DNA of 55,945 nucleotides from Bacteroidales bacterium (GTDB lineage Bacteria > Bacteroidota > Bacteroidia > Bacteroidales > Salinivirgaceae): the NCBI GenBank assembly GCA_012519055.1, contig JAAYQU010000027.1:1-55945 (forward strand). Reading direction: 5' to 3'. Of the stretch, positions 9,450-42,224 are shown in pieces. The notes beneath the pieces were generated by a model. It had not been told where the DNA came from and did no database searches. It saw only the letters and a program-made list of their open reading frames with translations. Every line of letters begins with the position of its first letter. Position 1 is the stretch's first letter. A program made the position numbers and the translations under genes.

Positions 9450-11987
9450 CTATTTGGTTTTTAACTGTTCATTGACTGTTTTCAACTCTTCAAAAAGTTT
9501 ATCTATTAGCTCTTTTTGCTCTTTAATTGCACCTTTTAACTCTTCTATGGTCTCGTTTTGCTCTTTATTCATTTCATTTAGAGATTTGTTTTCTGCATTT
9601 AGTTCTTTAATAGCTTCTACTAACACTGGTGTTAGTGTTGCATACTCAATGCTATAGTATATTTCGTTACCTTGTTCATCTTTTCCACCACCGTTCACGA
9701 TTTCAGGTAACACCTCTTTTACCTCTTGTGCAATAAAACCCACATTGCGTCCGGGGCGGTGGTTGGTTTCATCTTTCCAATTAAAGGTTACGCCTTGCAA
9801 TTTAAGCACACTTTGTAGTGCATCCTCTAAGGGTTTAATATTGGTTTTTAAACGTTTATCGCTATCCAGTAGCCATGCTTGTGTACCTCCTGCTATACCA
9901 TCTACTTTAAGTCTCCAATTTCCCGGGTTTACAGTGTTAATACCCACGTAGCCACCCATAATTGCCATGGTATTGAGGGTGTTAATTACTGGAGGTGTTG
10001 AGTTATAACTTAATCCTATACCGAATGAACCTTCTTTTGCTGCTTTAATAGAAATGCCCATTGCTGTACTAAACTGTCCGCTTGCTGTGGTTTGATAACC
10101 AATTGCAGTACTAATCTGTCCACTTGCTATGTTATTTCGCCCCATTGCAGTGCTAGCCTCTCCACTTGCAGTATTTTGATAACCCATTACTGTGCTATTC
10201 TCTCCACTTGCTGTGGTTTCACGACCCATTGCTGTGCTAGTCTTTTTGTTCGCTTGGGTTGCATAACCCATTGCAGTGCTAAAATCTCCACTTGCTGTGG
10301 TTTCACGACCCATTGCTGTGCTAGCCTCTCCGCTGGATTTATTTCCAGCACCCATTGCAATGCTCCACGTTCCACTGGCTTTGTTAGTACTACCCATTGT
10401 AGTGCTCCACCACCCGCTGGCTTCATTTGCGGCACCCATTGCTAATGCAAAATTATTAGATGCCACACTCTTAAATCCCATTGCAATGCTACCTTTGCCT
10501 TCTGCCTTAGTTCCATTTCCTATAGCAAATGAAAAGTCGCCAGTTGCTTCGGGTGCACCTGCTTCTCCCCAAGCATATTGCCCATCACTACCTGCGGGTG
10601 CTGCACTACCGAAGGCAAAACTTCTCTGTCCTGTGGCTTTAGCCCCACGCCCAAAAGCGTAGCTTTCAATACCACCTGCGAAAGCCTTTTCTCCAAGAGC
10701 AAATGAATTGGTATTGGTTGACTTGGCTTCATTACCAATAGCGGTAGAGTTTGTGCCTGAAGCCACAGCTTTATAGCCCAATGCCTGAGAATAGTCGCCC
10801 TGAGCCTGACTCTCATAACCGCTCGAAAAGGAGTTTTCACCAACAGAATCGACACTTAACACATACAGGCGTCCTGCCATAAAGGCATTTTTTTGTGGAT
10901 ACCACAATACTCGGTTTTGATTGGTAATGGTATCTGGTACTGTAGATGTGTTTATATCAAAATAGTTTTTACCCTCACCTTTTGCGGTTGAGCGTCCTCC
11001 TACTGTAAAACGTCCACTGCTGCCGTCGCCTGTTTCTTCGCTAACATATATTTTTGTGCTATCAACTGTGGCAACAAAGATGTTTTTTACTGGAAGCCCT
11101 TTACCTGAAGAGAGTCCACCAATAGCGAAACCACCTTTCCCAGCTTTAGTAGAATCGGTGCTTATGTATATACGTGCGCTATCCCGGTCTATGAAAAACA
11201 GGTCTTGAGTAACCTCCTTACCTGAAGAGAGTCCTCCGATAGCAAATCCTCCCTTCCCTGCTTTGCCTTGATTTTCGCGCAACAGAACTCTTACACTGTC
11301 GGGTGTAACTCTAAAGAACTTATTGTCGTTATTTTTGTATGAAGATAGTCCACCAATAGCAAAGCCACCTTTTCCGGCCTTGGCATTGTTGGTATCGTCA
11401 ACATTAATTCGTACACCCGCTTGATATACACCAAAAACCACTTGTCCCAATTTGTTTTTAACTTCAAATATTGGATCATTATCTCCGGCTGTAGAATCGC
11501 TTATTACTTCTACGTTTGGGTTTACGTTAAATGATTTTACGTCTGTTAATTGTGAGTCTCCTGACCATACAGCTATTTTTCCTGCAGTTCCTGTTCCCGT
11601 AACGGCATTTGTTGCATGCAAAGCATAAGGAACAGCCATAATAGGAGATGTTCCCATAGAAACAAAATTGTTATCAACCTTTAACTCAATGCTAATCAAT
11701 ATTGTTTCGCTCTCCCATGGTATGTCAGTAAAGTTGCCTGATAAAGCCTCGCCCTGCCCTATTACTAAACTAACTATACCAAAATTGTTGGTAGTACTGT
11801 TTTGTGTTTCAGAGTAATATACGGTATTGCTGCTTTGTCCAATGAGGCTTATACGTAAAGTAACCTCTTGATTATGAAGCGTAGCACCATCTTGTTTTTG
11901 TATGGCGGCTTGGTAGTTAAAACCTTGTTGTTGTGCTGTTGCAAATAGTGTTATGCTTAACAGCAATGATAAAAACAAATGTTTCAT
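9450..11987 (-). CDS. Large repeat-built surface adhesin with YadA-like head and S74 chaperone domain
   Basis: The frame extends upstream to 12101, but a signal peptide (MKHLFLSLLLSITLFATAQ) begins at 11987, giving 845 residues. Residues 20-130 form a beta-rich domain starting QQGFNYQAAIQKQDG, common at the N-terminus of Bacteroidota surface proteins. Four repeats follow, three containing GKGGFAIGGLSS and one degenerate. Next come many 14-residue YadA/Hep-Hag head repeats of the type STAMGRETTASGDF, which stack as a left-handed roll in trimeric adhesins. From residue 709 (SDKRLKTNIKPL) lies a peptidase S74 intramolecular chaperone domain, which normally trimerises and self-cleaves before that serine. 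A coiled coil closes the protein. No YadA membrane anchor or T9SS tail is seen, so its route to the surface is unclear. Its N-terminus closely matches the partial gene at 55762. Confidence 0.85.
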   Translation of the reverse strand: MKHLFLSLLLSITLFATAQQQGFNYQAAIQKQDGATLHNQEVTLRISLIGQSSNTVYYSETQNSTTNNFGIVSLVIGQGEALSGNFTDIPWESETILISIELKVDNNFVSMGTSPIMAVPYALHATNAVTGTGTAGKIAVWSGDSQLTDVKSFNVNPNVEVISDSTAGDNDPIFEVKNKLGQVVFGVYQAGVRINVDDTNNAKAGKGGFAIGGLSSYKNNDNKFFRVTPDSVRVLLRENQGKAGKGGFAIGGLSSGKEVTQDLFFIDRDSARIYISTDSTKAGKGGFAIGGLSSGKGLPVKNIFVATVDSTKIYVSEETGDGSSGRFTVGGRSTAKGEGKNYFDINTSTVPDTITNQNRVLWYPQKNAFMAGRLYVLSVDSVGENSFSSGYESQAQGDYSQALGYKAVASGTNSTAIGNEAKSTNTNSFALGEKAFAGGIESYAFGRGAKATGQRSFAFGSAAPAGSDGQYAWGEAGAPEATGDFSFAIGNGTKAEGKGSIAMGFKSVASNNFALAMGAANEASGWWSTTMGSTNKASGTWSIAMGAGNKSSGEASTAMGRETTASGDFSTAMGYATQANKKTSTAMGRETTASGENSTVMGYQNTASGEASTAMGRNNIASGQISTAIGYQTTASGQFSTAMGISIKAAKEGSFGIGLSYNSTPPVINTLNTMAIMGGYVGINTVNPGNWRLKVDGIAGGTQAWLLDSDKRLKTNIKPLEDALQSVLKLQGVTFNWKDETNHRPGRNVGFIAQEVKEVLPEIVNGGGKDEQGNEIYYSIEYATLTPVLVEAIKELNAENKSLNEMNKEQNETIEELKGAIKEQKELIDKLFEELKTVNEQLKTK

Positions 11988-12085
11988 ATAATTAGAAGTT
12001 AGAAATTTGAAGTTTATTTTCGCAGATATTGAGATATTTAGATGCAAAAAGACTTTGTAAAAATATAGGAAACTATATCGTTTGA

Positions 12086-12124
12086 AGTGGCTAAACAACA
12101 AAAATTAGTGGCTAAACAACAAAA
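12086..12124 (-). promoter_or_regulatory. Two 18-bp direct repeats with 21-bp period: candidate AraC-type operator
   Basis: On the minus strand TTTTGTTGTTTAGCCACT occurs twice, at 12107-12124 and 12086-12103, identical and 21 bp apart. It lies between the AraC-type regulator gene (stop at 12128) and the adhesin start (11987). AraC-family dimers classically bind direct half-sites spaced 21 bp. A poor -7-like sequence (TCTTTTTG, 12045-12052) follows about 34 bp downstream, as expected for an activated promoter. Binding by the neighbouring regulator is inference. Confidence 0.6.
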
Positions 12125-28276: not shown

Positions 28277-28654
28277 TTAACTTATATGAGCTTTATATTC
28301 ATCTTCACTAAGTAGGTCATCTTTTTCAGACATGTTTGTCATTTTAACTTTAATCATCCAACCTTTTCCGTATGGATCTTTATTAACTGTTTCGGGGCTT
28401 GAATTAAGTTCCTCGTTTACTTCAATAACTTCACCTGATAATGGCATAAATAGGTCTGAAACAGTTTTAACTGCTTCTACTGTTCCAAAAACCTCGCCTT
28501 TAGATAAGGTTTCGCCTTCAGTTTCGATTTCTACAAATACGATATCGCCAAGTTGTTGTTGTGCAAAATCGGTAATACCAATGGTTGCAATATCTCCTTC
28601 AATTACTACCCATTCGTGTTCTTCTGTAAATTTAATATTAGCTGGTAATTTCAT
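28277..28654 (-). CDS. gcvH: Glycine cleavage system H protein
   Basis: The 125-residue lipoyl carrier has the biotin/lipoyl fold with the lipoylation site GTVEAVKTVSDL (K63). N-terminal FTEEHEWV and ITDFAQQQLGDIVFVE are standard. It shuttles the aminomethyl arm between P, T and L proteins. The P and T genes are not nearby. It lies downstream of the five-gene sensor operon on the same strand but has its own -7 box at 28683-28690. Confidence 0.96.
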   Translation of the reverse strand: MKLPANIKFTEEHEWVVIEGDIATIGITDFAQQQLGDIVFVEIETEGETLSKGEVFGTVEAVKTVSDLFMPLSGEVIEVNEELNSSPETVNKDPYGKGWMIKVKMTNMSEKDDLLSEDEYKAHIS

Positions 28655-28804: not shown

Positions 28805-31141
28805 TTATTTTGTATGAGATTCTATTTCCGAAATTATCGTAGCGATTTCTCTGTCATACTCTACTTTCTTGGTTACATCAACGAGGACTAGTGTTATTTG
28901 CTCAATAATAAATTCGTCGTCATCTTTAGGTATCGGGATGTATGTTTCTGACAGATACATTGTTTGCTTATTAATTTTTACTTTTTGAATTTTCTTTTGT
29001 GAGTTACCTGATAGTACTTCAGCCCAAAGCAATTCCTGTTCTCTTTTTGAAGCATCGTCTGGTGTCGTAAATGCATCCAAATAATTACCTACCATTTGTA
29101 GTGCTGATAATCCGAAGAATAAAGCAAATGATTCACTTACTTCTGTAATTTTACCTTCTGGAGAAAGAGTAGCGTACATTGTATTTGTATTTAGAATATC
29201 CAAAACGGCACTAAGTTCTTGCTCGCGTTTTTCAGCTTCCTCCTGTGTTGCAATCATTTCTTCCATATTTTGACGCATCTCCTCTTCGTGCTGTGCTAAC
29301 ACATCTTTTTGCTCATGTGACTGTTTTAATAGAGCAGCAGTTCTAATATTAGTTTTTGCACTATTAAATGTTGATGCTATATTAGCACCTAATTTATCGA
29401 CAAACTCCATTTCATGCTCTTCAAACGGTTCGTAACCTAAAATTTCCACCACACCCATCATAACCTCACCACTTATAAGTGGTGCTATCAATGCGCTGCT
29501 TGGTATTTTATCGGTAACTAGCTCTGGTTTAATAATCGGAAAATCTTCTGTTGTATTTTCTATGTGTAACGTTTTTTTGTCTAATGCAACTCTACCAATT
29601 AACTCTTCTCCAATCTTAACTTTTTTATCAATAATTTTAGGATATCCATAAGCATGTGCTGCAATTAATTCATATTCAATCTCCTCAGAATCATCATTTA
29701 CAATATACAGGGCACATTGCGGTTTACTCATATAAGAGCAGATGTTCGACACAATATTTTCAGACAATAGTTCAAGATTATCATTGTTTTGACGTAATAT
29801 TTCTACAAAATGCGCAATTCCTTGGGTAACCCATGCTTGTTTATTATCAATCTCCTTTTGAATATTTTCTTCGATTTTGGCATGTACCAGGCTCTGTCTC
29901 ATTTTATTCAGAGATTTTCCCAAAAGATCATTTTTACTTAGTAGTTTATATTCTGCATCTAAATTGCCTTTTCCAATTTCGGATGCAAATCCTGCCATTA
30001 GGTTAAGTCCGTCAATCAGACGGTTAACGCTTTTAGCGGTATCACTTATCTCGTCATTTGTCTTGATTTTCAGTTTATTCTCATAAGATATGTTACCTAC
30101 AGCAACATCATGGAGCGACGATGTTAGCGAAGAGATCAGCTTGGTAATATAACGAGCTATAAACCAAATAAAGATACCTAAGATAATCAAGCCCATCACT
30201 GCGCTAACAAACGACAAATAATAGTTTCTTTTTGCTTCTTTTAGTATATGCCACGAGGGAGATGCTAAAACAAGTACATAATTGTCAGTGTTTTCTGATA
30301 TTTTAAAAGGTGCAAACGAAATAAAATAACTTGATTGGCTGAAAGGGAAGTAACCTTCAATTACAGACGATTTACTATTTGCACGGCAATTCTCAAACAT
30401 ATGCATAAATACTGTATCAAAGCCTAGTTCTGTAAAATTTTCTCCAACTAACGAGTCTTCAGAATGAGAAATAATGACGTTGTTATAATCGACAACAAAA
30501 ATTTGCTCTTTTTTGTTAGTTTTAAACGATGACAAGAATGACTGAAAATCACTAGAATAGCCATTAATAGATGTTGCTCCTATAAACTGATTTCTCTCAA
30601 CAATTGGAACGCAATAGCTGTTTTGTATAACTGTGGTATTATCGTATTGATATTGATGAGGCGGCAGTATAGTTTCATGCATATTTTTCTGGGATAGTAA
30701 ATATTGCGACATAACAGACAAATCACTACTATCAAAATCAATAGTATTTTGCATTCTGGTGTAAGAAATATTTATTTGCTCATCATTTTCAATAATAGTT
30801 GAAGGCTCAATAGATGTGCTGATTGACAGAAAATTTGGTGAATTAAATAGAATATTCTTAATGGAAGTTTCATAGATTGTCTGTCTCTCTTTCTCACTTA
30901 TATCGTCATAAACAAGAAAAAGGTTATCTATTGTTTTTGCTGTAACTATATACTCTTGAATAAAAAGTTTTGCCTTATGACTTAACGCTTTGGCATTTGA
31001 TTGGATTTGACTTTTATTAGTTTCTATAGAGTTGTCTTTAATTCTTTTGCTAACAATACCAATACTTACTCCAAAAACAACTGTCGCTGTGAGCAAAACA
31101 AGTATTAGCATTTTATTATGTATTTTCATTCTAATTCTCAT
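28805..31141 (-). CDS. Sensor A: Cache-HAMP-GAF-PAS protein without output domain
   Basis: This 778-residue membrane protein is the last of five paralogues. It has TM1 at 11-30, a periplasmic double Cache-type domain at about 38-300 (CVPIVERNQFIGATSI; SEDSLVGENFTELG), TM2 at 307-330, HAMP units at 331-425 (the second with GKGNLDAEYKLLSKNDLLGKS), and GAF at about 445-600. A coiled coil follows with HEEEMRQNMEEMIATQEE (618-635) and then a PAS domain (about 645-757, ending LVLVDVT). Nothing resembling HisKA/HATPase, GGDEF, EAL, SpoIIE or an MCP signalling tip follows. Its GAF lacks the SGLG motif shared by the other four, making it the most diverged there. It lies 35 nt after sensor B. The ligand and partner are unknown. 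Confidence 0.8.
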   Translation of the reverse strand: MRIRMKIHNKMLILVLLTATVVFGVSIGIVSKRIKDNSIETNKSQIQSNAKALSHKAKLFIQEYIVTAKTIDNLFLVYDDISEKERQTIYETSIKNILFNSPNFLSISTSIEPSTIIENDEQINISYTRMQNTIDFDSSDLSVMSQYLLSQKNMHETILPPHQYQYDNTTVIQNSYCVPIVERNQFIGATSINGYSSDFQSFLSSFKTNKKEQIFVVDYNNVIISHSEDSLVGENFTELGFDTVFMHMFENCRANSKSSVIEGYFPFSQSSYFISFAPFKISENTDNYVLVLASPSWHILKEAKRNYYLSFVSAVMGLIILGIFIWFIARYITKLISSLTSSLHDVAVGNISYENKLKIKTNDEISDTAKSVNRLIDGLNLMAGFASEIGKGNLDAEYKLLSKNDLLGKSLNKMRQSLVHAKIEENIQKEIDNKQAWVTQGIAHFVEILRQNNDNLELLSENIVSNICSYMSKPQCALYIVNDDSEEIEYELIAAHAYGYPKIIDKKVKIGEELIGRVALDKKTLHIENTTEDFPIIKPELVTDKIPSSALIAPLISGEVMMGVVEILGYEPFEEHEMEFVDKLGANIASTFNSAKTNIRTAALLKQSHEQKDVLAQHEEEMRQNMEEMIATQEEAEKREQELSAVLDILNTNTMYATLSPEGKITEVSESFALFFGLSALQMVGNYLDAFTTPDDASKREQELLWAEVLSGNSQKKIQKVKINKQTMYLSETYIPIPKDDDEFIIEQITLVLVDVTKKVEYDREIATIISEIESHTK

Positions 31142-31176
31142 GGATATGTAGTATTATAATGTTGAATATAATGATA

Positions 31177-33963
31177 TTAAAATGATTCTATCTGTATTAA
31201 TTCTTTTTCTACTTCTTCCCAAATGTTTGTTATTTCTTCAACTATTTTGTTGGTTGTGTCATCGATACTCTGTAATGAGACTTGTCTTTCTAATTGTCTT
31301 GACAAGCTGTTCATATCTTTAACCCCTAAATATGTCATTTTAGTACGGAATGCAACAATTTTTGCTTTTAACAGACTCCATTCACGTGAACTTAGTAATT
31401 CTTTTATTTCGTCAATTTGTATCGGAATGGCTTCTTTATATATTCTTAGTATATTAATGATTTTGTCACTATCGCCCTTATAAACTTTGAACAGATGATC
31501 TAAGCGTATATGTTTGAACTTAGAGCTATCTTTCAGCAACTCTTCAATATTCTTCTTGCTCTTCTTTTCTACTTTCTTTCTCGTAGCTTTAACTAATTCG
31601 TGCTTTTCTCTAAGTACAGCTAATTGGGCCTCTTTACGTTTTTCTTCGCTTATATCAACAGCGATATTTATAACCTTATAAGGTGTTCCGTTTCCGTCCA
31701 ATATAGGTATATATATTTCTTGTAGCCAAATTTCCCGACCAAGATATTTTGCATAAAACTCTTGTTTTACCTCTTCACCTTTTTCTAATCTTGACCAAAA
31801 TGCAATACGAGACTCTCTTTTTTCTTTACTTATGAATTCATGTTGTCCTATTTTTTTCCCTATCGCTTGTTCTCGTTTCATTTGGAACAGTTGGAGTAAA
31901 CGGTCGTTTATATCTATTACAACTCCGTCCATATCGTATTCTACGTAGCATATTGCACTGGTTACAGAGTCTATAAGTTTTAAATATCGTTTCTCGCGTT
32001 CAGACGATTCTTCTTGAGTCGCTGCCAACTCCTCAATGTTTTGTCTCATCTCCTCTTCCTGTTGTGTTAGCTCATCGGCTTGAGTTCTTGATTCGTTAAG
32101 GAGTTCAGCTGTACGTACATTTATACGAACAATTGAAATTATTGAGGCTATAGAAACACTAACGGTCTCGACAAAACGTATTTTATATTCTTCAATAGGT
32201 TTCAATCCTAAAAGTTCAATGGCTCCTATTAACTCTTCGTTTACTATAAGTGGAGTTATCAACACGCTTCCGGGACTTGTTTGTCCAAGACCTGATGTGA
32301 TTTTTGAAAAATCAGATGGAACATCATCAATGTATATTGTCTGTTTTTCGATTAAACAACGCCCTACAGCCCCTTGATTTTCATATATCTTATCTTGATT
32401 TATTCTATCTTTTGGGAAACCACTTGACGCATATAGTTTTAAATATGTGTCATATTCACTGTTCTCTACCAAATACAGTGCTCCTGATTGCACGTCAATA
32501 TAATCAACAAGTTTTGTAATAACCTCTTGTCCTAGTTTGTACAAATCGTCATTGTATTGTCTTAATGATACTGCAAACATATTAAGACCTTGTGTGCTCC
32601 AATTTTTATGAAAATCTTCTTTTTGGCGCTTTTCTTCATCTTTTTGGGCTTTAATAAGCGAATCGCGCATATTTAAAATACTATTACCTAAGATATCCTC
32701 TTCGCTCAGAGGTTCGAATTGGTGTTCATAATCGCCATCCTTAATTTTCTCTGCAAATGCAAGAGTATTTTTTAGCCCACTGATAACTTGATTAACAGAC
32801 TCGCTCATCAACTGTATCTCATCGCCTGTTTTTATGTTGAGTTGATTTACATTTTGAATATCTCCCAAGGAAAGTTGATAAAGTATTTTCGTAGTTTTTC
32901 TCAATGGAAGAACTATCATCATAGAAATAATTATGATAATTAATATTAAAAGAATAAAGCCATGAAATGCGATTTGCTTAGTATAAGCCATATGGGCATC
33001 TACTTTCCCTATGATTGTTTTTAGGGGCATATTAATTGCCAAAGCCCATGTAGTGCCACTATTGCCTATTTCTAAAGGCATAAATACTGTGTAGGTAAAT
33101 GCATTTGTTCTGTTCGAGAAATATTCGAAATCATATGCTTTCCCATTAGTAAAATTTTGAATTATTTCATTAATATCAATATCTAAACTATCAGATTCTA
33201 AGTAACTTTTCCCTAATAGTGATTTGTCGGGGTGCGCAATAATTGTTGATCGGTCAGAAACTAAAAAGGCTTCTGAGCCATCGAAGGGTTTAATTGAATC
33301 TATCATTCCTACGAAATTTTCCAATGCAATGTCAACTCCCACAATTCCTGCAAACTCATTATTAATATTTAAAGGCACACCAATTGAGGCCATTAAAACT
33401 AAATTATCTCCTAGTTTATAAAAATAAGGTTCCGTTATGAACTCTTTGTTAGTTATTTTTATATTATAATACATACTTGCGGTATCGTCACCTTCGAAGT
33501 TTATGGAGTCCCCCGCATACTGTATTTGATCTCCTTCCCGAAAAAATGAAGTTATTATTCTGCCAAATTTTTTGGTATAATTTTTATTTAAAAAACGGTA
33601 CTCCCATGAATCCCAAACTGACGCGTATTTTGGATTCTCACTTGCTGATTTCTTCAATGATGACTTAAAAAAGGCTTTTGCTTCTGATTTAGGTATGTTA
33701 GGATATGTAGAGAACACATGGGAAAGTACTCGCATCTCGAAAAAAACGCTGTTAATTTCTGTTTGAACCTCACATCCATAATCGTACGCTACTGTTTTTG
33801 CCAAGTCTTTAGATTCTTTAATAGCTACTTTTTCAAAATCATGATTTATATATCTGAAAACTACGAAATAAACTAAAGCCGTCGATGCTGAAACACCTAA
33901 CGTTAGCTTTAACACTAGACCAAATCTAAATTTTCGGAACCTATTTTTTTTATTTACCGCCAT
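31177..33963 (-). CDS. Sensor B: Cache-HAMP-GAF-PAS protein with histidine-less HPt-like tail
   Basis: The longest paralogue, 928 residues. TM1 lies at about 13-37, Cache at about 45-325 (FITEPYFYKLGDNLVLM; GIVGVDIALENF), TM2 at 331-353, HAMP at 354-460, GAF at about 480-635 with ITSGLGQTSPGS, then a coiled coil with QEEEMRQNIEELAATQEE and PAS at about 690-800. A charged linker leads to a helical region (about 821-925) that looks like an HPt domain: LFKVYKGDSDKIINILRIY, then KIVAFRTKMTYLG. In HPt domains the aligned core is AHxxKxxxxYLG; here valine 870 replaces the phospho-accepting histidine. It could bind a receiver domain without phosphotransfer. It lies 61 nt after sensor C. HPt homology is inferred from pattern only. 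Confidence 0.78.
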   Translation of the reverse strand: MAVNKKNRFRKFRFGLVLKLTLGVSASTALVYFVVFRYINHDFEKVAIKESKDLAKTVAYDYGCEVQTEINSVFFEMRVLSHVFSTYPNIPKSEAKAFFKSSLKKSASENPKYASVWDSWEYRFLNKNYTKKFGRIITSFFREGDQIQYAGDSINFEGDDTASMYYNIKITNKEFITEPYFYKLGDNLVLMASIGVPLNINNEFAGIVGVDIALENFVGMIDSIKPFDGSEAFLVSDRSTIIAHPDKSLLGKSYLESDSLDIDINEIIQNFTNGKAYDFEYFSNRTNAFTYTVFMPLEIGNSGTTWALAINMPLKTIIGKVDAHMAYTKQIAFHGFILLILIIIIISMMIVLPLRKTTKILYQLSLGDIQNVNQLNIKTGDEIQLMSESVNQVISGLKNTLAFAEKIKDGDYEHQFEPLSEEDILGNSILNMRDSLIKAQKDEEKRQKEDFHKNWSTQGLNMFAVSLRQYNDDLYKLGQEVITKLVDYIDVQSGALYLVENSEYDTYLKLYASSGFPKDRINQDKIYENQGAVGRCLIEKQTIYIDDVPSDFSKITSGLGQTSPGSVLITPLIVNEELIGAIELLGLKPIEEYKIRFVETVSVSIASIISIVRINVRTAELLNESRTQADELTQQEEEMRQNIEELAATQEESSEREKRYLKLIDSVTSAICYVEYDMDGVVIDINDRLLQLFQMKREQAIGKKIGQHEFISKEKRESRIAFWSRLEKGEEVKQEFYAKYLGREIWLQEIYIPILDGNGTPYKVINIAVDISEEKRKEAQLAVLREKHELVKATRKKVEKKSKKNIEELLKDSSKFKHIRLDHLFKVYKGDSDKIINILRIYKEAIPIQIDEIKELLSSREWSLLKAKIVAFRTKMTYLGVKDMNSLSRQLERQVSLQSIDDTTNKIVEEITNIWEEVEKELIQIESF

Positions 33964-34024
33964 GTTTGCCCGGTTTGTGATTGTTATTAATTGTTAATTG
34001 ACTTATGGTTTATGACATTAAGCA

Positions 34025-36355
34025 CTAAGTATTTGTTTTACTTTGAGTTAAATCAATAGTTATATTATAAACTTTATCGGGTTCTCCATATGAATTGAGT
34101 ACAGGTGTGTACAACTCTGTAATCCACATTGTTTTTCCGTTAACTTCTATCTCTTGAGTTATTTGTCTGGTTTCTCCATTTCTTAAATCCAACCACAAAC
34201 TATCAAACAATTTGGACGTCTGCTTTTTTGTAGCAAAACTGCCCTGTTTTTTCCCTAATAAACTTTCTTTGGGAAGACCCAACACATCGCAAAACTTTTG
34301 ATTTATGTCTATCAAAGTTCCATCCATATCGTATAAAGCAACCATTGACACCGTGTTTATCGCATCAATTAATTTACGCGTACTCTCTTCGCGCTTTTGC
34401 GATTCCTCTTGAGTTGCCCGCATCTCTTCAATGTTTTGGCGCATTTCCTCTTCCTGTTGTGTCAACATTTCGGTTTGTTCTTGTAATTGGCTTAAAAGAG
34501 TATCTGTTCTACGTGATATTTTTAACGAATTGATAAATGAGGCTATTCCCTCACTTGATTTTTCAATAAATGTTATTTCATGAGGCTTTAATTTATTGAA
34601 CGATATTAATTCAAGTACTCCTAATGCTATGTTGTCATTAATTAAAGGGAACAGAGCAATACAGTTTGGACTAGCGTCGCCCAAACCGCTGGAGATGTTT
34701 ATGTAATTATCTGGAACGTCAGTAAGCAAGACTGTCATTTTTTCAAATGCACAACGTCCAACTAATCCTTCCTCTGGTTTTATTTTGGCATGTATTAGTC
34801 TGTCTCTATCATATGCAACTGCTGATACTAATTCATAATAAATATCATCGGAATCATTATCATTTAATATATATAACGCACCTTGACATGCTTCAATCTG
34901 ATTTATAATAAACCGCACCACCTCATATCCCATATTTTTAATTGATCCTGATGTGTTCCTTATAATGTCAGCCAATTTTGCTTGGTTTTGAGTAATCCAT
35001 ATTTGTATTTTTTCTTCTTCCTGCTTTTTCGCAAGTTCTTCATCTGCTTTTTGTAGGTTTTCTCGCATCTCTATGAGTGCTTGTCCCAGAGTGTCCTGCT
35101 CACTTAATTTATTATACTGGGCATTAATATTTCCTGAACCTATTTCTTTTGCAAAACTTAACGCATTCAATAGTCCGTTACTCAGAGTTTCAATGCTTCG
35201 TTCCATCTCTCCTATTTCGTCACTGCGCGTCGTATCAAGGTCCTTATTGAACTCAATTTGACCGAGTGCCAATTTTTTAATTAATTGTGTTGTTTGTCTT
35301 ATGGGACGCGAGATACTATAAGATACTAAATAAACAATGACAGTCATAAGAACAAAACCAATTATGCCTATAAGAAGAGAAAATCTCATCATGCTTTTTG
35401 CTGGAGCAAGTACCACATCCATAGGAACCGCAACACAAAGTGTCCATGGTCTATCGTCTCCAATTGATATTATGGGAGAAAAGGCATAAAATCTCTCATT
35501 ACCCAAAGAGTCGTTGTCTATGACTGTAAAAGAAGTACCGCTCTGTATTTTATCTAAAATCTCATGCCTTGTTGCAAATCCTTTATTTGTTTCTGTGATT
35601 TTTTTACCGTAAAAGCTCTTGTTTGGGGCTGTAACCCATGATCCGTCATTGCTTAGTATAAAGGCATAACCTTGCTCAAAAGAGCTCAGATTATCACAAA
35701 TATCTTGAAAATACCCAAGATCAACATCTACTCCTGTTACACCCACAAACTCGCTATTATAAACAATTGGTGTACTAAAGTTTGTGTTCAAAACGTTGTC
35801 TTCCTCTTTGCCCGAGTATGAGTAATATTCAGGATTACTTAACCAATCTTTCTTTGTTGTTTTTAATTGATAATAGGAACTTTTAACATCATCTCCTTCC
35901 ATATTTCTATACGCATCAAAGTATGTTACTGTTCTATTATTACGGAAATATCCGAATAGATATCGTCCATAAGTATGCTTATATGCCGCATCAATGAACC
36001 TTAATTCAAAACTTGTAGCTGTTGACAGAAAACCTTTGTTTTGTTCAATTATATTTTTTTGTGTTTCGAGAAATATAGGAGAGAATTTGTCCCAATCTAA
36101 TTGATGGAAAGTTGCGCCCAAATCTGCTAGTGTTCGTGTAATTGCAAAAATACCATCCAATTCACCTTTAATTTGTTTTGCATATTCTTCCGAATTTGAT
36201 ATTGCCAACTGCTTTGCAGATTTATTTAAGCTATTTATACTATGAATACTTAAATATCCGAAAGAAACAACATAAACAATTGTTGCCGAGGAAAGTATAT
36301 AAAGTAGTAATCTTCCTTTTATATTTAGTTTTAATCTATCTGAAATTTTAATCAT
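34025..36355 (-). CDS. Sensor C: Cache-HAMP-GAF-PAS protein without output domain
   Basis: This 776-residue paralogue has TM1 (about 14-36) and a periplasmic Cache domain (about 40-310) with TPIVYNSEFVGVTGVDVDLG and the small-residue loop GYAFILSNDGSW. TM2 follows (about 325-347, LIGIIGFVLMTVIVYLVSY), then HAMP units ending GSGNINAQYNKLSEQDTLG. GAF (about 460-610) has LVGRCAFEK and ISSGLGDASPNC. The coiled coil reads QEEEMRQNIEEMRATQEE, and the PAS domain has ALYDMDGTLIDIN and closes ITIDLT. The protein stops there, with no kinase or other catalytic end. Gaps of 56 and 61 nt separate it from sensors D and B. Confidence 0.8.
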   Translation of the reverse strand: MIKISDRLKLNIKGRLLLYILSSATIVYVVSFGYLSIHSINSLNKSAKQLAISNSEEYAKQIKGELDGIFAITRTLADLGATFHQLDWDKFSPIFLETQKNIIEQNKGFLSTATSFELRFIDAAYKHTYGRYLFGYFRNNRTVTYFDAYRNMEGDDVKSSYYQLKTTKKDWLSNPEYYSYSGKEEDNVLNTNFSTPIVYNSEFVGVTGVDVDLGYFQDICDNLSSFEQGYAFILSNDGSWVTAPNKSFYGKKITETNKGFATRHEILDKIQSGTSFTVIDNDSLGNERFYAFSPIISIGDDRPWTLCVAVPMDVVLAPAKSMMRFSLLIGIIGFVLMTVIVYLVSYSISRPIRQTTQLIKKLALGQIEFNKDLDTTRSDEIGEMERSIETLSNGLLNALSFAKEIGSGNINAQYNKLSEQDTLGQALIEMRENLQKADEELAKKQEEEKIQIWITQNQAKLADIIRNTSGSIKNMGYEVVRFIINQIEACQGALYILNDNDSDDIYYELVSAVAYDRDRLIHAKIKPEEGLVGRCAFEKMTVLLTDVPDNYINISSGLGDASPNCIALFPLINDNIALGVLELISFNKLKPHEITFIEKSSEGIASFINSLKISRRTDTLLSQLQEQTEMLTQQEEEMRQNIEEMRATQEESQKREESTRKLIDAINTVSMVALYDMDGTLIDINQKFCDVLGLPKESLLGKKQGSFATKKQTSKLFDSLWLDLRNGETRQITQEIEVNGKTMWITELYTPVLNSYGEPDKVYNITIDLTQSKTNT

Positions 36356-36411
36356 AACAAGGACATATATGTTAGAATGATTTTTCTATCTGTTTGAGTT
36401 TACTATTGTTA

Positions 36412-38730
36412 TTATAACATGTATTCAGTTGCTACACAAATTACTTTAATAAAATTACCTGCAGTGTCATTTACGGGACTATAAACTTCAGATAATTTTC
36501 GAATATTACCTGCAAAAGAGTACGTTCTATCAACTTTTACAACTTCACCATTTGACAATAGTTCCCATAAATAGGAGTTTGACATTTCTTCGGGCTCTGA
36601 TATTTCAACATCTCTTATAAAATTAAAACTTTTTCCTAATAGTTGTTCTTTTGAAATACCCATGAAGTTACAAAAATTATTATTCACATATACAATTTCT
36701 CCTGACAAATCTAAATGGAATATATATGCTAAAACGTTAACAGCATCTTTCAAACTCTCTGTCTCTGCGTCTCGCTTTGCAAACTCCTCTTGTGTTGCTA
36801 TCAATTCCTCCATATTCTGACGCATCTCTTCCTCTTTTTGTGTCAACTCTTCTGTTTGCATCTTTGTTTGCTCAAGCAAGTTGCTTGTTCTTTCAGCAAC
36901 CTGTCTTGCTGCAATAGTCGATGCAAGACTGTAACATGCCTTTTCAATAAATTCTATTTCATGTTCAGCTATCGGATTAAATGATGCTATTTCAACAACT
37001 CCCAATACATCGCCGTTCATTTCTAAAGGAATCAATATAATGTAATTTGGATTTGCTTTTCCTAAACCTGATGTTATGTTTACATAATTTTTTGGTACCT
37101 GAGTTAAGTATATTGACGCTTTCTCAAAAGCACATCGCCCTACCAATGATTCGCCTATTTTGTAGGCTTTTGTTATTGAGCGTTTCCTTCCCCATGCAAG
37201 CGCTGCAAATGCAACGAACTCAACGTTTTCTTCTTCGTTCTCTGGATTTTCAATTTCTTGAGCAAGAAACAAAACACCCTGATTTGCTTTTACATAATCT
37301 ACAACAAATTTTAATGCCGAATATGTATGTCCTTGAAAATCTAAATCTTGCCGACGAAGTATTTCGTTCATTTTCGCCACTCCACTATTTATCCAAGTTT
37401 GCAACTCTTCACTTTTTCTCCGTTGTATATCCTGATCTCTTGCTTCCTTAAGGTTATTTTGCATCTCAATGAGACTCAATCCAATAACATCGTTTTCACT
37501 ATGTGCTTTATATTCAGCATCAAGGCGCCCTTCTCCAATTCCTTTTGTAAATTCTGACATTTCAAACATCCTGTCTATCAAAAGATTTAGCGAATTGTTT
37601 ATTTGTCCTATCTCATCGTTATTATCGTTTGTTAATCTGTTTACAGATTCAATTTCACCAAGTGCCAACTTGTTAATTGCTTTTGACACATCGTTCAAAG
37701 GTTTGATAAGTCTTATGGCAAATAAATAAGCAGCTAAAAGCACAATAATAAGTCCTACTAAACATACTATTACTGTGTTGAACAGTATTTCGTTACTTTT
37801 AGAAAAATGAGCTTTTTGAGAAAAAGCCAATCCAAAGCTCCAAGGAGTATCTGTATTTCCTGCATAAACAGGTGAAAAACAAATATAATAGTTCGTCTTG
37901 TCGCTACCGTTTTGATAAAAGGCAAATCGTTTCCCGACATTTATTAAAGAGTTTATATCGAACTCTCGGTTTTCTAGTATTTCGGTAATATTGTCACCAA
38001 TTATTTCCCCGTATTCGTGCGAAATAATTGTACCTTGGTTTGAAATAAAAAAAGTTTGACTTCCATCTAAAAACTCTATTTTTTGCACCAAATTATTAAA
38101 ATAGTTTAACGGCAAATCTATTCCCACAACTCCTGCAAATTGACCTTTGTACATTATCGGGCTGCAGACACTAATTACCTTATTCTCTTGTTCCCCCAAA
38201 TAGTTTATATAGGGCTCAGATATTGTATTTTCAGGATTTGCTTTTATTTGTTGATACAATCCTTTAGTACTATATCCTGTGTGTTCAAGAGTATCTACTT
38301 TGAATTTTACTGCGTTGTTATGTCTATAAAAACCACTCTTAACATTGCCATATTGAAAATTAGTGTTGATCTTATTTAACTCCCATTGTAACCAGATGTT
38401 TTGAATGTGATTATGCTCGTTAATAGCACTTTTAAGTATCTCTTTAGTAATGCTGTCACTAATCGATTGTTTATAATTGGGCATCTGACCTAATGTTGTG
38501 CTTAAGTTTTGTACTAAACTAAAATCTTGATTTAACTCAGTTGTCAATTTTTGAGCGAGACTTGTTGTTACTTGGGTTAAATACAGTTCTGTATCTTCCC
38601 TAAAAATGCGAGATGTTTTTATGCTCAGATAACCTACAGTTAAAATTAGAAGAAAAATTGTTGTTGATAATGCGAAAAACAACAATTTTGCCCTAAATGA
38701 AGAGGTTGTTTTTTTATATTTATTTAACAT
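36412..38730 (-). CDS. Sensor D: Cache-HAMP-GAF-PAS protein without output domain
   Basis: This 772-residue paralogue starts 11 bp inside the end of sensor E, so the two are translationally coupled. TM1 lies at about 15-36. The Cache domain has TISEPYINYLGEQENKVIS and GVVGIDLPLNYF, and TM2 is at about 322-345. HAMP follows, with a second unit GEGRLDAEYKAHSENDVIG. GAF has LVGRCAFEKASIYLTQVP and ITSGLGKANPNY. The coiled coil is KEEEMRQNMEELIATQEE and a PAS domain ends the protein. Conservation of the Cache aspartate-containing GVVGxD strand suggests a soluble ligand, but ligand residues cannot be assigned. Confidence 0.8.
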   Translation of the reverse strand: MLNKYKKTTSSFRAKLLFFALSTTIFLLILTVGYLSIKTSRIFREDTELYLTQVTTSLAQKLTTELNQDFSLVQNLSTTLGQMPNYKQSISDSITKEILKSAINEHNHIQNIWLQWELNKINTNFQYGNVKSGFYRHNNAVKFKVDTLEHTGYSTKGLYQQIKANPENTISEPYINYLGEQENKVISVCSPIMYKGQFAGVVGIDLPLNYFNNLVQKIEFLDGSQTFFISNQGTIISHEYGEIIGDNITEILENREFDINSLINVGKRFAFYQNGSDKTNYYICFSPVYAGNTDTPWSFGLAFSQKAHFSKSNEILFNTVIVCLVGLIIVLLAAYLFAIRLIKPLNDVSKAINKLALGEIESVNRLTNDNNDEIGQINNSLNLLIDRMFEMSEFTKGIGEGRLDAEYKAHSENDVIGLSLIEMQNNLKEARDQDIQRRKSEELQTWINSGVAKMNEILRRQDLDFQGHTYSALKFVVDYVKANQGVLFLAQEIENPENEEENVEFVAFAALAWGRKRSITKAYKIGESLVGRCAFEKASIYLTQVPKNYVNITSGLGKANPNYIILIPLEMNGDVLGVVEIASFNPIAEHEIEFIEKACYSLASTIAARQVAERTSNLLEQTKMQTEELTQKEEEMRQNMEELIATQEEFAKRDAETESLKDAVNVLAYIFHLDLSGEIVYVNNNFCNFMGISKEQLLGKSFNFIRDVEISEPEEMSNSYLWELLSNGEVVKVDRTYSFAGNIRKLSEVYSPVNDTAGNFIKVICVATEYML

Positions 38731-41062
38731 TTTTATCTCCGTATGAATGAGTTATGTCTATTGCAATGTTTATTACTTTTAATATTTTCCCTTGACTATC
38801 TTTAACAGGAACATAAGTTTCAGATAAAACAATGTTTTTGAACCCGGCATCAATTATTTGCACTGATGTAACTGTTTCACCTTTACGCAATTTTGCCCAC
38901 ATTTTGTCGTTTTTCTCCCTGTTTTCGACTTTGTCAAAGCTACCTTGTTTTTTACCAATAATCTGCTGCCTGTCAACACCAAGAAGACGTAGAAAATTAT
39001 CATTGATGTCTGTTAAATATCCATCAATATCATACTCAGATACCATTGAAATTTGATTAACAGCGCTTACTAGCGATGATATTTGTTCTATTCTGTGACG
39101 GGCTTCTTCTTGAGTTGCGTTTAACTCTTCGAGAGTTTGTCTGGCTTGTTCTTCTTTTAACGCCAAGGCCTTACTCTGTCTTTGTGATTGTTCTAGCAAA
39201 CGCACAGTCTTTTGGTTTGTTATGACATTTGCCACTGTAACAGCCATGTCATCACCTACTTTTTCCAAAAACTCAATTTCAAAATCTTCGTACTCCTTGA
39301 AAGAGATTAACTCAACAACTCCTAATACCTCTTCATTTGTTTTCATAGGAACAAGCACAATAACATTGGGTGTAGCATTGCCGAGCCCCGATTTAATTCT
39401 GGGATAATTGTCTGGAATCTCAGTAAGATATATGGTTAGCTTTTCAGATGCACAACGACCAACTAAGCCTTCTTCAAGTTTTATTTTGCCTTTGGCGATC
39501 TTTTCTCTTCCAAATGCTATTGCTGCCGTCATTTCAAAATAAAGATCGTCTTCAGTATCATAATTCTTCACATATACTCCACCTTGTACTGCATCAACAT
39601 ATTCCATAGTAAACTTCAATGCAGAAAAAGTCAGCTGGCTCATACTTTGACTATGCTGACGTAATATTTCACTTACCTTGTTTATACCTGTCGCTGACCA
39701 CTGCTTTCGATCGTCTAATAGCTTTTGTTCGGCCTCTCTCTTATTCAAAATGCGTTTGTTTTCTCTAATATCAATGAGGGCATTACCAATAATGTCCGAT
39801 TCGCTAAGTGGCTTAAATTCAGCATCTAAATTCCCTTTGCTCATTTCTGTTGCAAATTTAGCAAGGGTGTTCATATTGTCAATCAATTGATTAATTTGAC
39901 AACTCATAGCATAAAGTTCGTCATTGGTATTTAGGATTATTTTTTGACTTTCATCAAATACACCTCGACTAAAACTATCAAAAACGCTTATGAAAAGCTT
40001 TGTTGGGGAAAGTACTCTTTTTATAATCAAGTATATAATCACCAATGCTAATATAAGCCCCAAAATACCAGCTACTATAGAGAAAATCAAAAACTCATTG
40101 TTACTTTTTAAAATATTGTCTAACGGAGTAATCAAACATAAAGCCCACGGAGCTATATCATCATTAATTTTTATGGGGAATATAGTTACATAACTCTCCT
40201 TTCTATCGGTAATAAATGAGATGGGTTTACCTGCCTCCACATATTTTAAAAAGTTAAACCCCATGTTTTTAAACTGTTCTAAATTTGTTATGTTTCTGCC
40301 GTTTTGGCTGTCGTCAGGATGAAGTGCAACAGTTCCTTTATTGGACAATAGTATAGCATAACTATCTGGGGAAGAAGTTGTTTTACTTATCAAACTTTCC
40401 AAAGATATATCAACACTTACAACACCTTTAAAAACATTGTTTTTGATTATGGGTACTGTAAAATTTGCTACTAAATTCTCAGAGCCATTATTATTTGAGT
40501 AAGATGCTAAACGAGGGTCGTCTAAAGCAGATATTCCACTTGCTTTAACTTTGTTAATAGCTAAGTCTGTAATTTCATTCGTTTTAGAATCTTCATCAGC
40601 GGTAAGTTTTTTAACCTTATTGCTCAAACGATAATAAGCAAAGTTGAAATTATTTTTATGTGTATCGTTAATATTACTTGTGTCGGCAACAACAGAATCT
40701 TCTTCGTTCTGAAATATGCACCATATTGCTAAAATATTAGCATTACTTACCATAGCTCTAGCAATATTGTTTTCTATGTATTCAGCACGTTTTTCCTCAA
40801 TTGTATATTCCCGTGTCTCAATAATGCTTTTTAAAAAGTATGCTGAACTTTGACACTCTTTAAATACTATTTGACTTTTATAGGCATTTTCACTACAAAC
40901 TGCATCTAATGTCTTTTTGATGCTATCAATTGTTTCTTGATTTCTTTTTATAGAAACAGCAATTAATACTGGAATAAGCACAACAATAACTACAAGAGTT
41001 GTGTATGCTATCAGTTTAGAACTAAGGTTCTTTTTTCTACTTCTTGATGAAAAATTTTTCAT
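38720..41062 (-). CDS. Sensor E: Cache-HAMP-GAF-PAS protein, first gene of the array
   Basis: This 780-residue protein is the promoter-proximal paralogue. TM1 lies at about 17-40 after a basic N-terminus (SSRSRKKNLSSK). The Cache domain has PIIKNNVFKGVVSVDISLESL, and TM2 is at about 325-347. HAMP units include SKGNLDAEFKPLSESDIIG. GAF has LVGRCASEKLTIYLTEIP and IKSGLGNATPNV. The coiled coil is the most changed of the five (KEEQARQTLEELNATQEE). PAS ends with INIAIDIT. As in the others, no output domain follows. A TAACTTTG box upstream could start the whole 12-kb transcript. Confidence 0.8.
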   Translation of the reverse strand: MKNFSSRSRKKNLSSKLIAYTTLVVIVVLIPVLIAVSIKRNQETIDSIKKTLDAVCSENAYKSQIVFKECQSSAYFLKSIIETREYTIEEKRAEYIENNIARAMVSNANILAIWCIFQNEEDSVVADTSNINDTHKNNFNFAYYRLSNKVKKLTADEDSKTNEITDLAINKVKASGISALDDPRLASYSNNNGSENLVANFTVPIIKNNVFKGVVSVDISLESLISKTTSSPDSYAILLSNKGTVALHPDDSQNGRNITNLEQFKNMGFNFLKYVEAGKPISFITDRKESYVTIFPIKINDDIAPWALCLITPLDNILKSNNEFLIFSIVAGILGLILALVIIYLIIKRVLSPTKLFISVFDSFSRGVFDESQKIILNTNDELYAMSCQINQLIDNMNTLAKFATEMSKGNLDAEFKPLSESDIIGNALIDIRENKRILNKREAEQKLLDDRKQWSATGINKVSEILRQHSQSMSQLTFSALKFTMEYVDAVQGGVYVKNYDTEDDLYFEMTAAIAFGREKIAKGKIKLEEGLVGRCASEKLTIYLTEIPDNYPRIKSGLGNATPNVIVLVPMKTNEEVLGVVELISFKEYEDFEIEFLEKVGDDMAVTVANVITNQKTVRLLEQSQRQSKALALKEEQARQTLEELNATQEEARHRIEQISSLVSAVNQISMVSEYDIDGYLTDINDNFLRLLGVDRQQIIGKKQGSFDKVENREKNDKMWAKLRKGETVTSVQIIDAGFKNIVLSETYVPVKDSQGKILKVINIAIDITHSYGDKNVK

Positions 41063-41234: not shown

Positions 41235-42224
41235 TTACAGTGTTCTTATACCCATAATTTCTCTTACTTCTCGGACTGTTTTTGATGCACTCTCTCGCGC
41301 TTTCTCTGCTCCTATTCTAGCTGTCTTTTTTAGCATATCTTCGTTGCTGCTTAGCTCTTGCATTCGCTCATAAATAGGTGTTGTAAATTTTATAATATCC
41401 TCTGCCAGCTGCTTTTTTAGGTCTCCATACCTGATAGTGCAATTTGCATATGATTCACGGAAAAATTTAACTGTCTTACTATCTGAAACAACGTCCATTA
41501 TTGTAAACAGATTGTTTACGCTTTCCGAAACGGGCGAATTTGGCTTGGTTGGACCCGAATCGGTAACTGCTTTCATAACTTTTTTGCGAATAACTGAAGG
41601 CTCATCGGCTAAGAAAATTCCATTTCCTTCTGATTTTCCCATTTTTCCTGACCCATCAAGACCTGGTATTTTTATTAGCTCTTGACCAAAATTAAATGCA
41701 GTAGGTTCTTTAAAATACTGAACGTTATAGATATTGTTAAATCTACTTGCAAAGGTTCGTGTCATCTCCAAATGCTGCTCTTGATCTTTCCCCACTGGAA
41801 CTTTAGCCGCATGATGAATAAGAATATCGGCAGCCATTAACACAGGATAAGTTAGTAATCCAGCATTAACGTTGTTGGGATTTAGCCTTACTTTATCCTT
41901 AAAACTGGTGGTACGATTAAGCTCTCCGATATAAACAATCATATTTAGTAACGAATATAGCTCATATGTTTCAGGCACATCACTCTGTACATATATAACC
42001 GCTTTCTCAGGATCAAGTCCCGATGCTAAATATTCTATTAAAGTTTGGCGGACATTGCCGTGTAAATCAACCGGATTTGGATGTGTTGTGAGAGAATGTA
42101 CGTCTGCAATAAAAAACATACAGTCGTTTGTTTCCTGCATTTTCACAAAATTTACCATTGCTCCAAAGTAATTCCCCAAATGAAGCCTGCCTGTTGGGCG
42201 AATACCGCTTACTACTCTTTCCAT
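41235..42224 (-). CDS. trpS: Tryptophanyl-tRNA synthetase
   Basis: The 329-residue class I synthetase charges tRNA-Trp. The HIGH-type motif is PTGRLHLGN (10-18), and the KMSKS loop is KMGKSEGN near residue 195. FFIADVHSLTTHPNP and VPVGKDQEQHLEMTR are standard TrpRS segments. Length is normal. It precedes the sensor operon on the same strand, with a 172-nt gap and a weak hairpin (AAAAACG/CGTTTTT) between them. Confidence 0.96.
   Translation of the reverse strand: MERVVSGIRPTGRLHLGNYFGAMVNFVKMQETNDCMFFIADVHSLTTHPNPVDLHGNVRQTLIEYLASGLDPEKAVIYVQSDVPETYELYSLLNMIVYIGELNRTTSFKDKVRLNPNNVNAGLLTYPVLMAADILIHHAAKVPVGKDQEQHLEMTRTFASRFNNIYNVQYFKEPTAFNFGQELIKIPGLDGSGKMGKSEGNGIFLADEPSVIRKKVMKAVTDSGPTKPNSPVSESVNNLFTIMDVVSDSKTVKFFRESYANCTIRYGDLKKQLAEDIIKFTTPIYERMQELSSNEDMLKKTARIGAEKARESASKTVREVREIMGIRTL

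Follow-up and report, generated by a model that had tools for sequence, protein, structure and literature searches.

Adaptation by reversible methylation of glutamates is known, to our knowledge, mainly from systems in which chemoreceptors (methyl-accepting chemotaxis proteins, MCPs) work with CheA. In the stressosome (RsbR paralogues, RsbS, RsbT and RsbU), several sensor heads sit on one scaffold that acts on a PP2C/SpoIIE phosphatase. A third point of comparison is the SiaABCD system of Pseudomonas aeruginosa. Here we compare these systems with an array of five receptor genes on a 55,945-nucleotide (nt) contig of a Bacteroidales bacterium of the Salinivirgaceae (GenBank assembly GCA_012519055.1, contig JAAYQU010000027.1). 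The whole of this stretch, contig C27 of a 2.71 Mb genome in 53 contigs (G000), was analysed and is called the window; the receptors are named P1 to P5 in ascending coordinate. We think it reasonably likely that the array supplies five chemoreceptor-like sensors to a CheA-independent network, one in which CheR and CheB would methylate and demethylate the receptors, and that these would couple to a switch made of SiaA, SiaB and SiaC counterparts.

Like MCPs, the receptors have periplasmic-type heads, HAMP domains, a methylation consensus at seven-residue spacing and many copies per genome, and in relatives the genes for CheR and CheB are linked to receptor genes. Unlike MCPs, they have cytoplasmic GAF and PAS domains and no PF00015 hairpin, the CheB that accompanies them lacks a receiver domain (hereafter lone CheB), the output is probably a phosphatase, and CheA and CheW appear dispensable in six families. 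That phosphatase, which we call the hub, resembles SiaABCD in its PP2C domain (nearest to structure 6k4e), in a DUF6272 protein in the place of SiaB, in a SiaC with a conserved threonine and in gene order. It differs from SiaABCD in that a GAF domain, a coil and two PAS domains are attached to the phosphatase, in that CheR and CheB occur alongside it, and in that matches to its scaffold number as many as at least 30 per genome. With the stressosome the network shares the layout of many heads and one phosphatase, but the scaffold is a membrane-bound HAMP-GAF-coil instead of STAS, and methylation enzymes are present; Pfam found STAS in none of the five window receptors and in none of 18 hub-linked receptors from relatives. 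Searches of open-licence papers in PubMed Central brought up work on the parts (SiaABC, CheR/CheB, stressosome), and none that could be recognised from titles and abstract starts as the combination of receptors, hub and CheR/CheB.

The array consists of the following genes (lengths in amino acids, aa).

28805..31141, minus strand: P1, 778 aa; head (weak Cache match), HAMP, GAF, coil, PAS
31177..33963, minus strand: P2, 928 aa; Cache head, HAMP (weak), GAF, coil, PAS and a C-terminal domain of predicted HPt fold
34025..36355, minus strand: P3, 776 aa; Cache head, HAMP, GAF, coil, PAS
36412..38730, minus strand: P4, 772 aa; dCache head, HAMP, GAF, coil, PAS
38720..41062, minus strand: P5, 780 aa; head (weak dCache_3 match), HAMP (weak), GAF, coil, PAS; first gene of the array

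The genes run head to tail, with gaps of 35, 61 and 56 nt from P1 to P4 and an 11-nt overlap of P4 and P5, exactly as the original prediction for this DNA had described them. That prediction also gave every protein two membrane segments and a Cache-HAMP-GAF-PAS order that stops after the PAS domain, which proved to be right in part. The Pfam GAF and PAS models scored above cut-off in all five receptors. HAMP did so in P1, P3 and P4 and remained below cut-off in P2 and P5; dCache_1 was above cut-off in P4 only, just below it in P2 and P3 and weak in P1, and the head of P5 matched dCache_3 below cut-off. The P2 head aligned with solved chemoreceptor heads in the PDB (9heh at E 7.6e-23), its solved relatives being mostly chemoreceptors. 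P4 and P5 each have two hydrophobic segments over the threshold and P1 has three (one of them within the GAF region); in P2 and P3 the second membrane segment alone exceeded it. P2 is the only receptor that continues beyond the PAS. When the five are compared in pairs, the heads are on average 21% identical, the GAF domains 36%, the coils 54% and the PAS domains 28%, so the predicted picture of divergent heads on one conserved scaffold holds.

None of the five receptors has an MCP-signal (PF00015), kinase, cyclase or phosphatase domain in Pfam searches at E values up to 1, and none has a HisKA/HATPase transmitter. A hidden catalytic domain at the C-terminus was considered and rejected. Pfam showed none, and NCBIfam and a PDB sequence search (the latter with P2 only) returned head, HAMP and PAS matches only, those in NCBIfam being weak, partial, sub-cut-off matches to such output proteins via PAS or HAMP. 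The lack of an output domain had been predicted, but it is not special to the array. G000 holds 12 genes of the scaffold family, of which 11 have no Pfam catalytic domain and one, the hub on contig C43, ends in a SpoIIE/PP2C phosphatase. Searches with P3 and with the receptor scaffold profile (A2, cut-off E<=1e-60) located the seven members beyond the array. Apart from the hub, they are a C37 member with a C-terminal hemerythrin domain (C37:27068-29356, L002), a Cache receptor on C29 that resembles the five, two members with other heads on C45, a Cache receptor without PAS on C11, and one member split over the contig ends of C11 and C17, which was scanned as two pieces. Relatives were retrieved with a pattern containing the coil motif, and the best 80 of 537 were kept. 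Scans covered the 65 with about 45 or more residues beyond the matched region, and no C-terminus among them belonged to a catalytic family; PAS was found, plus hemerythrin in three. Of the remaining 15, 14 end no more than 33 residues past the matched region and one (L071) is P3 of genome G001. Absence of a catalytic domain is therefore common in the family and not a local loss at the array.

A shared partner encoded elsewhere had also been predicted, and the single scaffold-bearing hub fits that description, with the coupling suggested by the comparisons below. The hub lacks a head and has two membrane segments (judged by eye), a GAF domain, a coil, two PAS domains and the SpoIIE phosphatase domain. 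Its genes on C43 run in the order CheR, CheR2, lone CheB, GAF protein, hub, DUF6272, SiaC and an ABC transporter with a TerB match (Pfam). In the PDB the phosphatase domain is closest to 6k4e (E 1.8e-34; the runner-up has E 2.7e-4), which we take to be SiaA of P. aeruginosa, and DUF6272 is presumably SiaB. Residues D334, D351 and G354 and residues D482, G483 and D535 (numbering of hub profile A4) are kept in 15 of 15 hubs and are spaced, within each trio, like D457, D474 and G477 and D600, G601 and D653 of SiaA, as given in PMC7647112. SiaC aligns over almost its full length with 6kko/6k4f and conserves a threonine at the position of T68. The operon thus matches the SiaABC set (SpoIIE, DUF6272 and SiaC by Pfam), including the threonine of the phospho-threonine site, and the corresponding activity is predicted.

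The methylation enzymes of the hub operon also resemble solved proteins. CheR1 matches solved CheR at E 8.9e-29 and CheR2 at E 3.2e-14, and the lone CheB retains Ser, His and Asp at positions aligned with 1chd, where they presumably form the catalytic triad. CheR2 (L028:7536-8366 and counterparts) is conserved but has diverged in one stretch, which we take to be where the cofactor binds; this paralogue may be inactive or serve for docking. Judged by their residues, the hub phosphatase, SiaC and the lone CheB look intact. The ABC/TerB gene occupies the place of siaD, and a GGDEF protein is absent from G000 and present in 1 of 28 hub genomes. We therefore discarded a diguanylate cyclase (a SiaD-type target) as the protein on which SiaC acts in G000; the ABC/TerB protein encoded next to it is a more likely target. 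The gene after ABC/TerB (L028:16696-17628) encodes 310 aa that begin like a lipoprotein and match nothing in Pfam, and genes of similar length occupy this place in many hub loci.

We examined the distribution of these components in an order sample of 80 genomes (no two from the same family; G000 included), a phylum sample of 198 genomes and six genomes of the window's own family (G000; G001 and G002 of the same genus; G003, G004 and G005 of another). The hub (A4, cut-off E<=1e-100) occurs in 28 of the 80 order genomes, always as a single copy. The receptor scaffold occurs in 30, namely all 28 with a hub and 2 of the 52 hub-less genomes (Fisher p 1.5e-19); the genomes share ancestry, of which Fisher tests take no account, so such values are not probabilities of function. 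The two exceptions are G014 (88% complete) and G081, where the scaffold match (L178) falls in a protein of 1452 aa that also shows a receiver-like match. At least two A2 matches are present in 27 of the 28 hub genomes, and the sole match of the other, G034, lies apart from its hub. Lone CheB, called at more than 200 bits on a hidden Markov model built from the hub operon's own CheB, is found in 27 of 28 hub genomes (not in G012) compared with 3 of 52 others (G009, G031 and G038). In the phylum sample, four of 198 genomes have the hub (G000 and three of family f88), and the same four have the receptors.

Gene order shows a similar association. We collected 35 hub loci: those of 27 of the 28 order hub genomes, G001 to G004, three of f88 and one Cyclobacteriaceae metagenome-assembled genome; the hub of G040 (L141) is outside this set. 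Genes were counted as linked when on the same strand with gaps of no more than 350 bases, a rule under which contig ends and wider gaps conceal neighbours such as the G021 ABC gene and two G022 receptors. SiaB and SiaC are each linked to the hub in 34 loci (both absent in G062), ABC/TerB in 31, CheR in 22 and lone CheB in 21. In 17 of the 35 loci the run of linked genes includes an output-less receptor of the family, and in G019, G029, G042, G047 and G069 a receptor sits between CheR1 and CheR2. In the 18 hub-linked receptors Pfam found no catalytic family, only GAF, PAS, Cache, four-helix and HAMP domains and a few weak unrelated matches. Hub, SiaB, SiaC, CheR, CheB and receptors are thus associated in their gene order as well as in their occurrence across genomes. 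A histidine kinase in place of the hub, where the CheR-CheR-CheB-GAF genes stand alone, was considered and rejected: at six such loci the following genes are unrelated by eye, and the hub is elsewhere in the genome.

From these data a broader proposal can be made, to which we give slightly less than an even chance. The 28 of 80 sampled families would possess a distinct class of adapting receptors, in which many output-less membrane receptors, methylated by CheR and demethylated by lone CheB on the coil behind the GAF domain, act through one SiaA-type hub per genome that controls threonine phosphorylation of SiaC, with no CheA, CheW, CheY or MCP hairpin in the pathway.

Several observations weigh against the network proposed here. 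The window array is unlinked to any Che or Sia gene. G002, of the window's own genus, lacks the array but possesses a hub along with scaffold matches, and G005 has the array but no hub-sized protein among its 11 scaffold matches (93% complete draft). G012 has a hub without a lone CheB, and a CheR/CheB pair of the hub type is kept in the hub-less G009, G031 and G038. Weaker scaffold matches occur in long kinase-like proteins of the hub-less G018, G025, G045, G055 and G079 (L172, L174, L176, L177 and L179), which are encoded beside CheR and CheB, and the co-occurrence could in part be joint inheritance. The other such observations concern CheA and the coil and are taken up with the alternatives on which they bear.

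It should also be noted that the proteins at L172, L174, L176, L177, L178 and L179 have 1175-1505 aa and a receiver-like match and lie near a pair of CheR and lone CheB; the L174 protein is a hybrid histidine kinase by eye. These long receiver-bearing proteins are an apparent further use of CheR/CheB outside MCP systems.

The idea that G000 is without CheA was refuted, as this genome encodes CheA, CheW, a receiver-domain CheB and five MCP-signal matches. The five proteins could accordingly be unorthodox inputs to a canonical CheA/CheW array, working as partners of MCPs without a hairpin tip of their own. CheW is indeed tied to the hub, with 22 of 28 hub genomes positive compared with 5 of 52 others (G007, G018, G063, G078 and G081). 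In nine order genomes chosen for the closeness of their matches (L122-L130) a family member lies beside a receiver-type CheB, so the receptors may feed CheA as well; in G003 and G005 one is found near such a CheB. In G034, one gene run holds both systems (CheA, CheW, CheR, CheB, receptor, CheR1, CheR2, lone CheB, GAF, hub, SiaB and SiaC). However, six hub genomes, each from a different family (G019, G023, G048, G052, G058 and G071), have no CheW or MCP matches and still keep lone CheB and 3-11 scaffold matches each. Conversely, the CheW-positive, hub-less G007, G018, G063 and G078 have no scaffold match at the A2 cut-off (G018 has a weaker one, in the 1505-aa protein of L176), and the MCP-signal domain is missing from all five window receptors. 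We give the CheA-input explanation a slim chance. The array had been predicted to be unlike the chemoreceptor pattern; this is correct in that six families appear to manage without CheA, CheW and the MCP hairpin, but not with regard to the CheR and CheB that accompany the hub or the methylation consensus in the coil.

The members of the family found in Che clusters (L122-L130, L139 and L140) have 625-771 aa; by eye, the two that were read whole contain three PAS domains and lack an output. Judged by its start, their counterpart in G000 is the gene split at C11/C17.

The most conserved 17 columns of the scaffold form the coil that follows the GAF domain, with the consensus EEEMRQNMEELQATQEE and a mean top-residue share of 0.80, compared with 0.56 in the GAF (79 receptor rows). 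This consensus contains three pairs of glutamate or glutamine (Glx) at seven-residue spacing and the hexamer EE-x-x-A-T, as in the chemoreceptor methylation consensus EE-x-x-A-[ST] given in PMC1079850. Every window receptor has the exact EE-x-x-A-T once, with a Glx pair seven residues to each side (E-Q in the first pair of P5).

29237..29287, minus strand: candidate CheR methylation coil of P1, EEEMRQNMEEMIATQEE
32008..32058, minus strand: candidate CheR methylation coil of P2, EEEMRQNIEELAATQEE
34403..34453, minus strand: candidate CheR methylation coil of P3, EEEMRQNIEEMRATQEE
36784..36834, minus strand: candidate CheR methylation coil of P4, EEEMRQNMEELIATQEE
39104..39154, minus strand: candidate CheR methylation coil of P5, EEQARQTLEELNATQEE

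Among the 79 rows, 52 have the exact site (counted as EE-x-x-A-[ST]), 69 the EE pair and 60 satisfy the broader methylation-site rule, Glx-Glx-x-x-small-small; the background of the motif is 20 in 604,575 residues. This set omits the motif-fetched loci, seven rows gapped at the coil, hubs, small GAF proteins and long receiver-bearing proteins, and contains one cut hub copy (L014) with an exact coil site. Because the retrieval pattern contained the motif, its frequency in the 80 retained relatives was discarded. Five of the six genomes without CheW or MCP yielded 16 receptors (among the matches listed, of 35 in the six genomes, hubs included), and 14 of these carry the exact site. In the sixth, G019, the one receptor read has T for A.

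An alternative is that the network is real and the receptor coil unmethylated, in which case the glutamate pattern would be structural or an interaction surface and CheR and CheB would have another substrate, for example the small GAF protein or the hub. Glutamate is abundant in coiled coils generally, and the exact site is missing from 27 of the 79 rows and present in just 16 of 34 hubs. Eight receptors close to hubs have no exact site (L186, L187, L190-L194 and L196), and three others do (two in L185 and one in L189). G014 keeps the site in both of its receptors, and no CheB was found in that genome. Nonetheless, the consensus is exact, has the seven-residue spacing and falls inside the best conserved stretch of the scaffold, and the 14 of 16 exact receptors belong to genomes that have no MCP for CheR to act on. 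Of seven receptors that adjoin CheR1, four have the exact site and two have T for A; the one that has lost it, a further point against methylation, is in G012 (L197), where there is no lone CheB. We regard an unmethylated coil as a real but minor possibility.

A search for the same gene cluster, which the original prediction had proposed, found the five genes in identical order in G001, G003, G004 and G005, with conserved neighbours on both borders.

41235..42224, minus strand: trpS-like gene, upstream border of the array and neighbour of P5 in G001, G003 and G004; judged by its sequence, it presumably encodes tryptophan-tRNA ligase
28277..28654, minus strand: gcvH-like gene, downstream border of the array, 125 aa, with a similar start by eye beside P1 in G001, G003, G004 and G005; presumably glycine cleavage H protein

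The gcvH-like gene lies alongside the array in all four genomes. The trpS-like gene adjoins P5 in G001 (L018), G003 (L020) and G004 (L022), and the G005 contig ends inside P5. Syntenic orthologues are 36-58% identical one to one across the two genera. In a tree of the scaffold, P1, P2, P4 and P5 each form one clade that spans both genera; the four rows of P3 do not form one supported clade, and P3 orthologues of the second genus have about 140 additional residues and, by eye, another PAS. The array is therefore old, its order and flanks being preserved in two genera, and recent tandem duplication, which would have undone the predicted receptor set, is ruled out by synteny and tree, the placement of P3 aside. 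The hub itself was fetched from five of the six genomes of the family.

These comparisons also bear on the view of the array proteins as independent or decaying sensors, without a common partner, whose output has been lost. It draws on the lack of an output domain in the five, on the distance of the array from the hub, on the absence of the array from one genome of the same genus and on the array-bearing G005, in which the hub was not seen. Order, flanks and reading frames (bar a broken P3 in G004) are, however, kept across two genera at the identities given above, and the catalytic domain is absent family-wide (0 of 65 C-termini), with no local loss. We consider this view very improbable.

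In G004, P3 (L021:13345-16108) and the lone CheB (L035:5717-6283) are each split in two frames, which may be an assembly error in a genome of about 360 contigs. G003 has two long family members in tandem (C1:3505241-3509199, L033).

If the array belongs to a CheR/CheB-adapted network with the hub, signalling might proceed as follows. Ligand binding at the heads would act through HAMP and GAF on the glutamate-rich coil, the five heads most likely sensing different ligands via a common cytoplasmic relay. Receptor scaffolds would associate with the homologous scaffold of the hub, and the state of the receptors would set the activity of the hub phosphatase. The hub phosphatase and the kinase SiaB would together set the phosphorylation of SiaC. 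CheR would methylate, and CheB demethylate, the coil glutamates at EE-x-x-A-T, thereby resetting sensitivity and setting gain. The f88 hubs, which have 1119-1121 aa, would represent a natural receptor-phosphatase fusion. The one scanned (L181) has about 300 extra residues before the HAMP, which have no Pfam match and were read as a head by eye.

If this is true, CheR and CheB would serve a Ser/Thr phosphatase switch, and adaptation would be a portable module. It would also give a role to many output-less sensors of Bacteroidota that are seen only as HAMP/GAF/PAS proteins. The hub is a directly testable partner, and glutamyl methyl esters in the coil would be a testable chemical mark.

The extra domain of P2 is kept in its four syntenic orthologues.

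31180..31518, minus strand: pseudo-HPt domain of P2, with the HPt fold predicted and Val where the phospho-histidine would be expected (codon 31354-31356)

A Pfam scan of the P2 C-terminus did not detect HPt. An AlphaFold2 model, made from an alignment of the five orthologues, is a helical bundle with a predicted local distance difference test (pLDDT) score of 84.9. Searched with Foldseek, this model had HPt proteins at all of ranks 1-10, the best at E 1.9e-3 and a template modelling (TM) score of 0.65, and HptB at TM 0.70; none reached E<=0.001. By eye, in an ungapped alignment, the five orthologues have V, I, G, G and N at the position that we take, from the HPt consensus, to be that of the phospho-histidine. 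The model thus predicts an HPt fold without the phospho-accepting histidine, which is probably a docking or regulatory module.

Elsewhere in the window, positions 9450-12101 (minus strand) encode long degenerate repeats of the ASGxxSTAMG type and, by eye, an endosialidase-chaperone-like C-terminus, the features of an adhesin-like surface protein.

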